A stretch of 54,215 nt of DNA from Deltaproteobacteria bacterium (lineage in GTDB: Bacteria > UBA10199 > DSSB01 > JACPFA01): positions 1 to 54,215 of the forward strand of contig JACPFA010000039.1 of NCBI GenBank assembly GCA_016183235.1, in the 5' to 3' direction. Within the stretch, counting starts at the first letter, position 1. The number at the start of each line of letters is the position of its first letter. Positions 48,033 to 54,215 of the stretch are shown here, piece by piece. A program made the position numbers and the translations under genes. The notes under the pieces were generated by a model. The model saw only the letters and a list, made by a program, of their open reading frames with translations. It was not told the origin of the DNA and did no database searches.

Positions 48033-50177
48033 TTAGGCGCGTTGTTTTCGCAAGGCAACTAACGAACCTAGCCCAAGGAGTAAGATAAGCCCTGAGCCTG
48101 CGGCTGAGCGGGCGGGGACTGTGCTGTTGGGGGTTAGGCTACACTTAGCACCTTCGATGAATAAGTTCTCACCGCTGCTGGTACTTGGGTTGGAAGCAGT
48201 GTCGGTACTAGCACTGGGCTCATTGGAACTGGGCGTTGGAGTTGGCAGAGGTGGTACCGTCGGAGTAGGTGTAGGCGTTGGTGAAGGTGACACCGTCGGA
48301 GTGGGTGTAGGTGTTGGTGAAGGTGACACCGTCGGAGTGGGTGTAGGTGTTGGTGAAGGTGGCACCGTTGGAGTAGGTGCAGGTGTTGGTGAAGGTGGCA
48401 CCGTCGGAGTGGGTGCAGGTGTTGGTGAAGGTGGCACCGTTGGAGCAGGAGTAGGTGTTGGTGAAGGTGGCACCGTTGGAGTAGGCGTAGGCGTAGGCGT
48501 AGGTGAAGGTGGTACCGTCGGAGTGGGTGTAGGTGTTGGTGAAGGTGGCACCGTCGGAGTAGGTGTAGGTGTTGGTGAAGGTGGCACCGTCGGAGTGGGT
48601 GTAGGTGTTGGTGAAGGTGGTACCGTCGGAGTGGGTGTAGGTGTTGGTGAAGGTGGTACCGTCGGAGTAGGTGTAGGCGTTGGTTCTACACATGCACCCT
48701 CATAGTCAAATTCGTGATTTTGTAAATGGCTAGCGGCACCTTGTGGACTCAAGGTCAAGGTCTGACATTGGTCAGGCCCGTTATTATTGCCAGGTGCGTT
48801 AGGGTCTTCACAGTGACAAATCGTAACTTTTGGCTCGCTAGTGGCAGGGCAACTAGCTGCATCCCCAAAACTAAACGGCCCTGAGTCTTCATCCACAAAA
48901 GACCATACCAAGGCAGGGCCTGATACGCCGTCTACAATGGTAAACGAGAAATATTGATCCGTATCGCGAGACAAGGGGTGATAGACTCCATCTAGTAAGG
49001 CCATGCTGGTAAAATTGCGATTGGAGGGTAGTGGATTTTCTTCTACCTTGGTAACGCTGTCGAGGTCAGAAAGTTCAATGATTAAAACATTGCCGTTGGT
49101 TCTTACATAAACAATCTGATCATCATCGTTGATAACCAAGTCTCCGCCGGAAAAATAATTCTCGGTGTAATTTTTCAATAAGGTCCCAGCACCCGTAGTA
49201 AGATCGAGGGTGTAGAGGTCGTCATTTTGATCATTGATAGCATAGAGAGTACCATCAGGGCCAAAGGCCAGCGAATTAACGCTGCCGGGGATACCTGTAA
49301 AACCAATCAATTCATAAGATTCACCCGGGAGTAATTTAACGAGTTTGGTTTTATTATTGATGATGAGCAAACCATAAAGATTGCCATCGGCATCGGCAGC
49401 AAGGGAAGCAGCAAAGACATTGTGATAATGAGTGCTTTCGGTAGCTTCACCCGTTGTGACATCGACAGAATAAAGGATAGCGGGATCATTGCCCACATCG
49501 TTGGCGTTGTTCTCAGTATCGAAATGCCATAATTTATCCTCACAAGCCTCATTTTCAATTTCTATTTCTTCTACAAAGTAAGTGAAAATAACGTCATCAT
49601 AGTCGGCATCGGCCGGACTATCCCAGGGGAGATCTTCGAACCCAACAATGATTTGATCATTAGAACCACCTACGGTTTGGGCAACTCGGCGAATGCCATC
49701 ACTGTTAAGTGAAGCAACACTATAATAGGTAATATCAGGGTTGCCATCGGGATGGATAAAAAAACCAATGTGAGTCCCGCCTGGGAAACTGCCGATATTG
49801 GCAGAGTCGCCCGTTGCAAGCACGCCAAAATCTACATCGGAGAAAATAATTTCTTGGGTAATGATTTCGTCTGGGGTGATGATCGTGTCACCGTTGGTAT
49901 CATCATAGGTAAAATAACCGAAGCTATTGTGGTAGCCTGCTGTTTCATCGACAAAAGTGACCACAACTTCAGAGTCAGTAGCGAGATCAATATTGGGGTT
50001 TTTGCTTGGGTCGATAAAACTAGCGGGTACCGGCACGCCGTCGGAGAATTGATCATCTACATCTTGCAGATAAGCTTCTTCTAAATCGATATGGAAATAA
50101 TCAATGGCAAAGGCCGAAGCGGGTAAAAGGGTTAAAATTGAAAAAAGGGGAATAAATAACACCTTGATGGATTGCAT
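48033..50177 (-). CDS. DUF4114 surface protein with Pro-Thr repeats and C-terminal anchor
   Basis: 714 residues from the ATG at 50177 (ribosome site AAGGAGGATG). Signal peptide to about 26 (PASAFA). A DUF4114 beta domain (about 60-220, [26 protein letters not shown]) is followed by a propeller-like region ([20 protein letters not shown]). Then about 12 [12 protein letters not shown] repeats, a linker and a tail GAKCSLTP, hydrophobic [11 protein letters not shown], basic RKQRA. This matches a cell-surface protein with a stalk and a processed sorting tag. Confidence 0.8.
48241..48690. repeat. 36-bp minisatellite encoding [12 protein letters not shown]
   Basis: Twelve tandem units of 36 bases (one of 42) with small variations (TVPP, TVSP, APTV). 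All three frames stay open because 36 is a multiple of three. Copy number may change by slippage and alter stalk length. Confidence 0.9.
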
Positions 50178-50517
50178 GACACATCCTCCTTGTTGACGAA
50201 AAATTAAATTTTGAAAGGTCCAGGCTTTTAATGAGGTTGGACTAAAGTTTAAACCCTTCATGAACCACTTCGAAAAAAATTACAATCAATAAATTGAAAA
50301 ATCTTATTTTTTTTTCAACAAGAGGGGCCGGGTCTTGAGGTAGAACTTCAAGAGGATAAGCGGCGTAGTGGGCCTGATTTAACTGCTTGTATTGTTTGAT
50401 AAAATTTTCGTATAGAGTTTCGGAGTTTTCTGGTCATGACTTTAGTGGGTAGAAGATACTGACTTTGGTCAACTATTTTTGATTTTCTTATGCTATTTTT
50501 TTCAAAATTTTGGCACT

Positions 50518-50567: not shown

Positions 50568-50654
50568 GGAGAGGTGGCCGAGTGGCCGAAGGCGCCTGAC
50601 TCGAAATCAGGTATCCGCGCAAGCGGATCGTGGGTTCGACTCCCACCCTCTCCG
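50568..50654 (+). tRNA. tRNA-Ser (anticodon CGA)
   Basis: Acceptor stem GGAGAGG/CCTCTCC, anticodon stem CCTGA/TCAGG with loop CTCGAAA, long variable arm TATCCGCGCAAGCGGAT, T-arm GGGTTCGACTCCC. Class II serine tRNA; the acceptor and T arms are the same type as tRNA-Ser(GGA) at 25029. Confidence 0.95.
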
Positions 50655-50663
50655 CAGTTCCGC

Positions 50664-50806: not shown

Positions 50807-51184
50807 ATGAAGGTATTAATTATCGATGATGAAGTAGAGCTTGTGCGTTTGACTGAAAAATGGATTCGGTCAAAGGGCTATGAAGTTTATAGTTATTTTG
50901 AGGGCAAAGGCGCCATTGACCATATCCGAGAAGTTTGCCCCGATGCAATTTTGCTAGATCTTCTTTTGCCCGATATTTCGGGAATTGAGATTTTTTATAC
51001 TTTAAAAGCCGATCCCGAATTAAGCAAGATCCCCGTATTATTTTTCACCTCTTATAATGTTAAGGAGTGGCCCGAGTTGACCAACCTGTGGCCCGAAGGT
51101 ATTATTAATAAGCCCTATGATCCTAAATATCTGCTTAGTGAACTTGAGCGCGTGCTTGCGAATCCAGAGGAATCCAAACCTTAA
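50807..51184 (+). CDS. Stand-alone response-regulator receiver
   Basis: 125 residues; acidic Asp7-Asp8, phosphoacceptor Asp51 (AILLDLLLP) and Lys in INKPYD. It converges with the Cache kinase and overlaps its last 50 bases. The likely phosphate donor is that kinase; no output domain is present. Confidence 0.88.
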   Translation: MKVLIIDDEVELVRLTEKWIRSKGYEVYSYFEGKGAIDHIREVCPDAILLDLLLPDISGIEIFYTLKADPELSKIPVLFFTSYNVKEWPELTNLWPEGIINKPYDPKYLLSELERVLANPEESKP

Positions 51185-53150
51185 AAACCGACCCTTTGCC
51201 AGGTTCGCTGGTTAAAGCAATTTTGCCTTTGTGTTCTTGCACGATTAATCGGGTAACCGCTAGGCCTACCCCCGAGCCGCCAGTTTTCCAAATGCCTCGG
51301 CTTAAAGATTGGCCAAACATTTCAAAAATCTTTTCATGATCTTGGGTAGGAATGCCCACCCCTGTGTCTTCAATTTCTAATTTTACCATGTCATTTTCTT
51401 GCACCATTCTTGCTGTAATCGTGCCATGTTCCGTGAACTTGATGGCATTGTTTAACAAGTTCAACAGCACTTGTTTGATTTTATCCGCATCACAGTTAAC
51501 GATGAGGGATGTTAGTGGGAACTCTCGAATCAAATGAAGATTTTTTTGCATAATCTCAGGTTCTACACTGTGGCAAATTTCTTCAAAAACCTCATTGAGG
51601 TTGGTGTCTTCATAAAACATTTCCATTTTGCCCGCTTCAAGCCTTGAATAGTCGAGTACATTACTAATGAGCCTAGCCAAGCGATCAATATTGCGTTTGG
51701 CGATCGTGAGGGTTTCATGTTGCGAGGTATTAATGGGCCCTTCAATTTCTTCGAGCATAATGTCGATCCCAGATTTCATAGCCGAAAGTGGGGTGCGAAG
51801 TTCATGCGACACCATCGAAATGAAGGCCGATTTCATTTGATTGGCATATCTCAATTCTTCGTTGGCCTTTTTAAAACGTTCTTCACTTTGTTTTAATTGT
51901 TGGGTGCGTTCTTGAACCCGAAGGTCTAATTCATCTTTGGCTTGTTGTAGCTCGTGTTGAGTGGTTTCGACGGCTTTTTTAGCTAACAAAGTATCTTCTA
52001 CTAAATTAAGCGCTGCACGGCGTGAAGCGATGAGTTGTTCGGTTTGTTTTTGCAGGGCTTGAGTTCGGTGTTGCACTTTTTCTTCTAGGGCCTTTTGGGT
52101 GGAAACGAGTTCTTGTGTCATGTCTTTAATTGCCAAGGCTAGTTTTCCAATTTCATCTTTCCGGCCGCTTTGGATTAATAGCATGGGTTGGACAAAATCA
52201 GGGTGTTGTTCTCTTACCTTACTCGTTAAAAAGCTGAGTTCGAGCAGAGGTTTTAAAAGTTGTTGGCGAAGAAAGAGATTGCTTATAAAAAGAATCAACA
52301 GAATAACCCCGCCCAAGATCCAAATTTTGTTTTTTATTTTGTTCACTTCTCTTAAAAAGTATTCTTCATTCATTTTGGCGGCAAAGATCCAAGGTGTGGC
52401 CGTAATATTCTTGGTAGCTATAAAATTTGCAGAGGCATTGGTTTGGCCTAAAAATTTTACAAATTCACCTTTTTGTTGGGAAGACAGGGAAGTGGGGGCA
52501 AGAAAAGTTAGCGCATTTTGTCTTTCATCGCGCCAAATTAAGGCAACGCTTGCATGATTGCCCAGGGCACTAATCTCAGCTAAAATTTTCAAAAGGTTTT
52601 CTACCCCACTTTCAATCACCAAAACCCCCGCAGGTTGACCGTTCTGTAAAATAGGCCCGGCCAGGTAAAGACGCGGAGTAAGATTAGCCTCTTCTGACAT
52701 CAAAAAATAGACCGTTTGTTCCTTGGCTAGTGTCAGATATTTCCAAAGCGGGTAAGATTTTCCTTCTGAATTAAAATCAGTGGAGACAATAATTTTCCCC
52801 TTAAAATCAAGTACACTCATTTTTTTTAAATCAGATTGCCCCTTTAAAGCCTCTTGCAAGCTCGTGCGGAGCGAAGGTTTGAGATAAGAATTGCCAACTC
52901 TAAGATTAAGCAAACCTCGGCTAAGGGAAGGCCTGCTGGCAAAAGACCGAAATAGATGCAAGTTGCTACGGAGATATTCAGAGATACCATGACTCGTTAA
53001 AGAAGTGATTTTGTTCAGACGCTCAAAGGTTTTTTGAGTAATGGTGTTTTTGAAATTTTGATAATAAAAATAGGAGGTGAGTGCAAAAGGGATTAGCACA
53101 AAAGAAGATAAAACCAAGGAAAGTTTTAACCGCAGATTCATGTGATACAA
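51135..53150 (-). CDS. Cache-type membrane sensor histidine kinase
   Basis: 671 residues: membrane helix about 8-28, a periplasmic dCache-like region to about 265, a second helix (IWILGGVILLILFISNLF), HAMP-like linker, long coiled coil, HisKA with ISMVSHELRTPLSAMKSG (His449), HATPase with LLNNAIKF, DTGVGIPT and GSGVGLAVTRLIV. It follows the ethylene-receptor-like gene by 17 bases, so the two are co-transcribed. The kinase domain is paralogous to those at 39942 and 41353. Confidence 0.9.
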   Translation of the reverse strand: MYHMNLRLKLSLVLSSFVLIPFALTSYFYYQNFKNTITQKTFERLNKITSLTSHGISEYLRSNLHLFRSFASRPSLSRGLLNLRVGNSYLKPSLRTSLQEALKGQSDLKKMSVLDFKGKIIVSTDFNSEGKSYPLWKYLTLAKEQTVYFLMSEEANLTPRLYLAGPILQNGQPAGVLVIESGVENLLKILAEISALGNHASVALIWRDERQNALTFLAPTSLSSQQKGEFVKFLGQTNASANFIATKNITATPWIFAAKMNEEYFLREVNKIKNKIWILGGVILLILFISNLFLRQQLLKPLLELSFLTSKVREQHPDFVQPMLLIQSGRKDEIGKLALAIKDMTQELVSTQKALEEKVQHRTQALQKQTEQLIASRRAALNLVEDTLLAKKAVETTQHELQQAKDELDLRVQERTQQLKQSEERFKKANEELRYANQMKSAFISMVSHELRTPLSAMKSGIDIMLEEIEGPINTSQHETLTIAKRNIDRLARLISNVLDYSRLEAGKMEMFYEDTNLNEVFEEICHSVEPEIMQKNLHLIREFPLTSLIVNCDADKIKQVLLNLLNNAIKFTEHGTITARMVQENDMVKLEIEDTGVGIPTQDHEKIFEMFGQSLSRGIWKTGGSGVGLAVTRLIVQEHKGKIALTSEPGKGSVFKVWIPLDSQARAQVH

Positions 53151-53167
53151 CCTTTTAGCGCCGTTCG

Positions 53168-53749
53168 TTATTCGTAAACTTTGTAAGGTTCGGGGTGGCC
53201 TAATTGTTGAGATAATTGGTTAATTTCTTTTTTCAGTTCAACAATCCTTTCTTCACGCCCCACTACGGCTTCGTTAAATCGTTCTAATTCTTGATTAGCA
53301 ATAGCCAGCTCAGAGGCCTTTTTTTGACTTTCAATAGCTAAGTTTTGGAGTTTGCGGTTGGTGGTTTCTAGTTCACGTGGGGCGGGCAGCTGCAAGATAG
53401 TGGGCAGATAAGACAATAAGACTGTGGCGGTTAAGATAGACACAAGGGCAGTGAAGGCCTTTACCAAACCTTCAATGCGATAAGCCCCACTCCAGGTGGT
53501 CCAAACATCCATGATATGGGTGGTACCACAGGCAAAGATGAAGATTGCAAACAGAACAAATATTTTTCGAAAGGGCATATCTTTACGAATTAAGACAAAC
53601 CAGGCAAGGGTGAAGGGAATTGAATAATAGGCTAGAGTAATGAGAATATCCGAGCTAACGTGAAGCCACAAAATTTCGGGTTTCCAAAAATAACAGTGGC
53701 CGTGAGGCATGAATTCGAATTGAGTTAGATTTTTAAAAAATTCGAGCAT
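53168..53749 (-). CDS. Stand-alone ethylene-receptor-like (ETR1-type) membrane protein
   Basis: 193 residues. Three membrane helices at about 30-125 match the plant/cyanobacterial ethylene-binding domain: LHVSSDILITLAYYSIP and FACGTTHIMDVWT. Asp34, Tyr41, Ile44, Pro45, Cys74 and His78 correspond to ETR1 D25, Y32, I35, P36, C65 and H69 with a constant offset of nine, so the copper ligands are kept. A coiled coil (ELETTNRKLQNLAIESQKKA) and a tail VVGREERIVELKKEINQL follow. No kinase domain: the downstream Cache kinase may be the partner. Confidence 0.85.
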   Translation of the reverse strand: MLEFFKNLTQFEFMPHGHCYFWKPEILWLHVSSDILITLAYYSIPFTLAWFVLIRKDMPFRKIFVLFAIFIFACGTTHIMDVWTTWSGAYRIEGLVKAFTALVSILTATVLLSYLPTILQLPAPRELETTNRKLQNLAIESQKKASELAIANQELERFNEAVVGREERIVELKKEINQLSQQLGHPEPYKVYE

Positions 53750-53829: not shown

Positions 53830-54071
53830 ATAATGTCTCAGTTTTTAGTAGAGAGAGCTTGGATCATTTCGTCAGCCGCGCTTCCGCAGCGACCCTAATG
53901 GAATTAGCAGGCATGGAAGCCTTCCGCGTTCCCCATCATGGGTCCCTGCCTTCGCAGGGATGACATGGGCCGCGGTTTTCCATGCCTGCTAATTCTCATT
54001 GGGGGCCCCGCTGCTCCAGCGATGGCTTCCTCAATGATCCAAGCTCTCTCTACTAAAAACTGAGACATTAT
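53830..54071. repeat. Large hairpin element, copy C (intact)
   Basis: Terminal 39-base arms (53830-53868 / 54033-54071) and an inner 18-bp stem (53901-53918 / 53978-53995) are perfect. The core TCGTCAGCCGCGCTTCCGC matches copy B. The inner loop holds a nested GTCCCTGCCTTCGCAGGGAT REP-like hairpin, absent from copy B. No gene lies in 53750-54215. Confidence 0.9.
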
Positions 54072-54142: not shown

Positions 54143-54215
54143 AAGCGCCGAGATGGCGTAAAACAAGTTATTTATTCTGGACTATTTTCAAAGATAAAAA
54201 AGGCTTACAAGTATT

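Follow-up and report, generated by a model that had tools for sequence, protein, structure and literature searches.

Histidine kinases are usually thought to bear their own sensor. In the H-NOX/HnoK, NosP/NahK and LuxP/LuxQ systems, a kinase-less sensor passes its signal to a histidine kinase encoded by another gene, each through its own domain-specific interface, while in CheA3/CheA4 and Hik36/Hik43 the kinase core itself is split. In the plant ethylene receptors ETR1 and ERS1, an ethylene-binding domain (EBD) is fused to GAF and kinase-like domains; these receptors are ER-located and signal mostly via a Ser/Thr kinase. The bacterial receptors SynEtr1 (Synechocystis) and AzoEtr1 hold EBD and kinase in one polypeptide, and a single-domain receiver adjoins AzoEtr1 (PMC11819568). 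Within single polypeptides, sensor and catalytic domains can be coupled by the S-helix, a helix of ~40 residues with an ERT signature (Anantharaman et al. 2006, PMC1592074).

Here we analysed a window of 54,215 nucleotides (the whole stretch of DNA examined), in which an ETR1-type EBD protein without a kinase is encoded beside a histidine kinase and a receiver. What an earlier note on this DNA had called a C-terminal coiled coil in the sensor and, in the kinase, a segment that it had missed are two specific conserved motifs, named here the tail and the box. We put the probability at roughly two in three that the locus encodes an ethylene-receptor-type two-component system cut in two, with the input delivered in trans via a tail-box helical joint. 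The features of the locus are as follows.

53168..53749 (-): stand-alone sensor gene, 193 aa, an EBD plus one long helix, without a kinase
53387..53674 (-): ETR1_N EBD with three transmembrane (TM) helices and D34/Y41/I44/P45/I71/C74/H78 (Pfam PF25487, E 2e-36)
53177..53317 (-): C-terminal tail motif of the sensor, ELERFNEAVVGREERIVELKKEINQLSQQLGHPEPYKV (84.5 bits, E 1.3e-23)
51135..53141 (-): partner histidine kinase, 668 aa from ATG, or 671 aa if from TTG 53150
52332..53066 (-): kinase extracytoplasmic domain, TM1-TM2, weakly dCache-like; within this class, in this genome only
51930..52055 (-): kinase box motif, LQKQTEQLIASRRAALNLVEDTLLAKKAVETTQHELQQAKDE (62.3 bits, E 1.2e-16)
51162..51836 (-): HisKA and HATPase_c core (Pfam)
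50807..51184 (+): single-domain receiver (REC), 125 aa (Response_reg, E 4e-17)

Results

The sensor carries an ETR1-type ethylene-binding domain

The 193-residue open reading frame with ETR1-type residues, recognized in the earlier note at 53168-53749 on the minus strand, proved exact. It matches Pfam ETR1_N (PF25487) with 124.5 bits (E 2e-36, cut-off 27) across profile positions 2-97 of 97, and is the sole EBD found in the 2.6-Mb source genome. ETR1 needs D25, Y32, I35, P36, I62, C65 and H69 to bind ethylene; at these positions the sensor has D34, Y41, I44, P45, I71, C74 and H78. An alignment of 38 EBDs shows no variation at Y41, C74 and H78 and at least 90% conservation at D34, I44 and I71. 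Sensor residues 13-145 are ~50% identical to the AzoEtr1 EBD (Azospirillum brasilense Sp7), with D34, C74 and H78 aligned to D35, C75 and H79 of that protein. These AzoEtr1 residues correspond to ETR1 D25, C65 and H69, and a radioligand assay has shown ethylene binding by the AzoEtr1 fragment of residues 1-130 (PMC11819568).

We used AlphaFold2 with an alignment to model the sensor (mean pLDDT 92.5). The model has helices at residues 24-54, 61-87, 90-119 and 124-182. The first three, mostly with pLDDT >90 and in agreement with hydrophobicity, are the predicted TM helices, and a single helix of 59 residues follows them. Judged by its sequence, the 193-aa sensor is a true ETR1-type EBD. A PDB sequence search with the sensor returned nothing useful and the Foldseek matches of the model were to small helical membrane proteins and no better than chance; neither search revealed a solved relative of the EBD. 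A complete EBD protein of 193 aa is an attractive target for structural work on this domain.

The sensor ends in PEPYKVYE and a stop codon, and its ortholog in G029, a genome from another family of the same class, ends in PEPYKIES and a stop codon and is also 193 aa long. With C-terminus and length both kept, a frameshifted kinase, one of the objections named in the earlier note, is ruled out; nor is the sensor the product of a frameshift, because the three-gene locus recurs in another family. Directly upstream of the sensor gene lies a palindromic MITE-like element (53830-54071) with 48-nt arms that are 92% complementary and spaced 146 nt apart, and, inside them, a perfect inverted repeat of 18 nt; position 54215 is the last of the contig.

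The sensor, kinase and receiver form a conserved locus

The search for the gene pair in relatives, as proposed in the earlier note, led to this locus in G029, where all three genes are found in unchanged arrangement and the pairing of a stand-alone EBD with a separate kinase is kept. Identities to the window proteins are 66% for the sensor, 51% for the kinase (TM2 onward) and 52.5% for the receiver, whose ortholog occupies the matching position. The intergenic gap between sensor and kinase is 2 bp in G029 versus 26 bp in the window. The latter figure assumes a kinase start at ATG 53141, which has AAAGG upstream and gives 668 aa; the 17-bp gap reported previously holds if translation starts at TTG 53150, but the sequence context makes the ATG the more likely start.

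The kinase core is well supported (HisKA, E 3e-16; HATPase_c, E 1e-27), while matches to HAMP (18 bits, cut-off 25) and dCache_1 (17.1 bits, cut-off 45) are sub-threshold. The extracytoplasmic domain gave a low-confidence single-sequence AlphaFold2 model (mean pLDDT 43.7), has no homolog in the 45 other genomes of the class and matched no PDB sequence. The G029 kinase is missing the periplasmic domain and has a PAS domain in its place, which identifies tail, box, kinase core and REC as the retained parts. As neither the G029 kinase nor the other class genomes have this periplasmic domain, the Cache-like domain is accessory and the EBD protein is the conserved input of the locus. A 'Cache kinase' as the defining partner was thus not supported, or at least overstated.

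The receiver does converge on the kinase, as had been noted, and overlaps its 3' end by 50 bp. This single-domain protein is likely to be the phosphoacceptor of the kinase. Immediately past the receiver gene is a tRNA-Ser (CGA) gene (50568-50655), and 48033-50261 encodes a protein of 742 aa that is probably secreted, contains a long repeat rich in Pro, Thr and Ser and has a C-terminus that, being hydrophobic and basic, resembles a sorting signal.

Stand-alone EBDs are rare

The arrangement was expected to be unusual, and it is: across 385 genomes of the domain we found 16 clear EBDs, of which 3 are intact stand-alone proteins, all in this class. Clear EBDs occur in 3 of the 46 class genomes and stand alone beside a kinase in each. 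One of these, in G024, is shorter and lacks the tail; its kinase lacks the box, which makes this locus, like the fused EBD-kinases, a negative control for the motif pair described below. Elsewhere in the genome collection, the EBD proteins of other phyla come with an output domain of their own (HisKA, HisKA_2, HWE or GGDEF/EAL); the exceptions are one or two open reading frames that are truncated or broken.

Several candidates were set aside. A 248-aa 'stand-alone' EBD in G172 has an unlikely sequence after the EBD and is probably a frameshift, and the EBD protein at L020 seemed kinase-less by the window's kinase profile, yet has HisKA_2. The EBD-like matches in tail proteins of G131 and G271 were not counted as EBDs, since the Cys is missing. 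Multi-pass membrane tail proteins at L141 (3900-5207) and L123 (2742-4043) contain a distant ETR1_N-like segment (GITHGANELMDMW) without the Cys ligand, which is possibly a diverged relative of the EBD. In the methanotroph Methylotuvimicrobium buryatense 5G, a tail sensor, a fused EBD-kinase and a box hybrid kinase follow one another (L034, 2923-11165), the latter two overlapping by 4 bp, such that an ethylene-type receptor adjoins a tail-box system.

Tail and box are conserved motifs

Searching with the sensor yielded 26 loci that match chiefly its C-terminal stretch, and in all of them the matched stretch is the C-terminus of a kinase-less sensor protein. The core pattern at the sensor end is ELERFN..VGRE.R..ELK.EIN.L...G..P.Y and the motif has the consensus xELERFNxAxVGRELxMIELKKEINQLxxxxGxxPxY; its R, E, L, K and N do not vary across 24 diverse rows. 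In total, all fetched loci contain 86 tail open reading frames, 83 of which have no kinase; the motif lies within 25 residues of the C-terminus, again in 83 of 86. The next recognized gene on the same strand is most commonly a kinase (38) or another tail protein (10). Tails are carried by PAS, GAF, CHASE, SBP_bac_3 and REC-PAS sensors.

The box lies before HisKA in the kinase, with the pattern SR.AALNLVED...A. In the window it reads SRRAALNLVEDTLLAKKA, and the consensus RLAALNLMEDAxAARxxxE is also present in tail-adjacent kinases of unrelated phyla. Neither tail nor box was found in fused EBD-kinases. Using a first box profile, we detected the motif in only three places in the 46 class genomes, which hold 540 HisKA matches. 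All three adjoin a tail, and in G017 the box comes directly after the tail in one open reading frame.

The tail and box of the window proteins fall outside every Pfam and NCBIfam model, and Pfam scans of 20 other proteins likewise left both motifs uncovered. A PDB sequence search found neither in any solved structure, and among the open-access papers in PMC, the literature covered by the search, none of relevance prints the motif strings. We provisionally conclude that tail and box are undescribed.

Tail and box are genetically coupled

With a second box profile, 13 of 14 hits in the 385 genomes had a same-strand tail no more than 3.5 kb away. Both the tail and the box profiles had been seeded from tail-adjacent loci; the held-out tests were strong, with 9 of the 10 loci unused in building the second profile lying near a same-strand tail. 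A broader profile returned 26 box loci in 23 of the 385 genomes, and at 19 of these loci a tail lies on the same strand no more than 6 kb away (chance ~0.0007 per locus). A tail is present in 20 of the 23 box genomes versus 38 of 385 overall (P 4e-20), and the gene order is nearly constant, with the box downstream of the tail. As a control, a 50-aa kinase segment adjacent to the box gave ~100 matches in 44 of the 46 class genomes, and these are near a tail only at the orthologous loci of G000 and G029.

Some tails and boxes stand apart. There are 62 tail hits versus 19 box loci near a tail, and many tails lack a strict box at distances up to 6 kb, which suggests that the box is degenerate or is not always the tail's partner. 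Several box loci, including plausible kinases in G016 and G030, are without a nearby tail.

Individual loci display the pairing in its simplest forms. Natural fusions with tail, box and HisKA in one open reading frame occur in G017 (858 aa) and G300. The minimal pair in G009 is a 145-aa tail protein followed after 2 bp by a 284-aa kinase that starts with two boxes and has nothing more before HisKA. Kinases in G337 and G195 comprise three to five tandem boxes with only HisKA/HATPase, and their genes overlap the tail gene by 4 bp; kinases of this build, without a sensor domain, lie at L128 (5272-6411) and L110 (1327-2448). Relay-like proteins have a box mid-chain and a tail at the end (L049, L111), and in Aeromonas caviae a 729-aa tail sensor gene overlaps by 4 bp that of a 1323-aa hybrid kinase with a box. 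The earlier suggestion that the EBD feeds a kinase in trans thereby gains specific motif evidence.

Discussion

In the mechanism that we propose, the 193-aa membrane protein would bind ethylene or a similar small ligand at a Cu(I) site made up of C74 and H78. Past the third TM helix, its chain would run on as the single long cytoplasmic helix that ends in the conserved tail. The kinase may sense a second signal by its own periplasmic domain, and its box would sit in the helical path before HisKA. Tail and box would then associate in trans as two halves of one helical joint; in the simplest stoichiometry, two tail helices of a sensor dimer would pack with two box helices of a kinase dimer. A shift of the EBD helices upon ligand binding could thus be passed to the HisKA bundle of the kinase, as in a fused receptor. 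In the fusions the tail is followed by the box in one chain, whereas in split systems the same joint would form between chains. If tails and boxes meet in trans, it follows that the window EBD is the ligand input of the adjacent kinase. Autophosphorylation of ETR1 is reported to be inhibited by ethylene; the kinase would phosphorylate the convergent single-domain receiver, or less of it should ethylene act here as it does on ETR1.

The same motifs would have a wider role if, as we think probable, tail and box constitute a general, previously undescribed docking code that plugs stand-alone sensors into separate histidine kinases. Such a code would span EBD, PAS, GAF, CHASE, solute-binding and REC-PAS sensors, the split ethylene receptor being one case, and would take in sensor-less kinases, several boxes in a row and tandem tail sensors.

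Other explanations of the data deserve consideration. The existence of natural tail-box fusions and the nearly constant tail-then-box order are also what would be expected had an ancestral linker been split by gene fission, with co-occurrence reflecting common ancestry and operon inheritance instead of contact while the sensor works otherwise or decays. We regard this as distinctly unlikely: in many phyla the pair is found again with widely differing sensors and kinases, sensor-less box kinases are found beside tail sensors, and both motifs are conserved when separate, whereas a non-functional remnant would not persist in this way. It is unlikely, too, that tail and box each homodimerize or are recruited to a common hub, such as a cluster, a pole or a chemoreceptor-like array, where sensor and kinase would be brought together with no direct tail-box contact and a third component would carry the signal. 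One kinase gene is often preceded by several tail genes in a row (10 tail-to-tail neighbours), boxes are repeated up to five times, as in multi-input assemblies, and AzoEtr1 is polar (PMC11819568), all of which would suit a hub; the coupling of tail and box is nevertheless pairwise, with direct tandem fusions, and the minimal pair in G009 is just two adjacent genes.

Finally, the EBD protein might be functionally separate, as a lone copper or redox sensor or a decoy, with the kinase answering to its own periplasmic domain only. That the kinase has a TM-bounded extracytoplasmic domain speaks for such an arrangement, yet it is this domain that is not conserved and the EBD-tail gene that is; together with the box in the kinase and the short gaps between the two genes (26 bp in the window, 2 bp in G029), this makes functional separation very improbable. 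We favour the reading in which the EBD protein signals to the kinase through tail and box.

If this is true, a plant-type EBD can signal in trans. More broadly, a conserved two-motif joint would explain the role, and reveal the kinase, of many 'orphan' output-less PAS and GAF sensors, and would offer a ready-made means to rewire kinase inputs.

Neither trans-acting sensors nor helical couplers are new in themselves. Like H-NOX, NosP and LuxP, the window sensor is proposed to act on a separately encoded kinase; to our knowledge, no trans sensor-kinase pair has a general short motif pair common to many sensor types. The system resembles the 'split histidine kinases' in that one signalling function is spread over two proteins (PMC3591291, PMC7656254), and differs in that its kinase core is whole and its input separate. 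In contrast to the S-helix, tail and box have no ERT and are mostly on separate polypeptides: the signature is absent from the consensus of the tail (A1) and the box (A4), while ERT-like stretches flank the box of the window kinase. The window sensor is like plant ETR1 and ERS1 in its EBD, which has three TM helices and Cys/His copper-ligand positions, and does not have their fused output. SynEtr1 and AzoEtr1 have the ETR1_N domain, binding residues and histidine kinase output seen in the window, and the latter also has the adjoining receiver. The window sensor is not an EBD-kinase of this one-polypeptide type, its kinase being the product of the next gene, and the two proteins carry tail and box. 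Set against these systems, what appear to be new variants are a motif pair of general use and an ethylene receptor divided at the tail-box joint.
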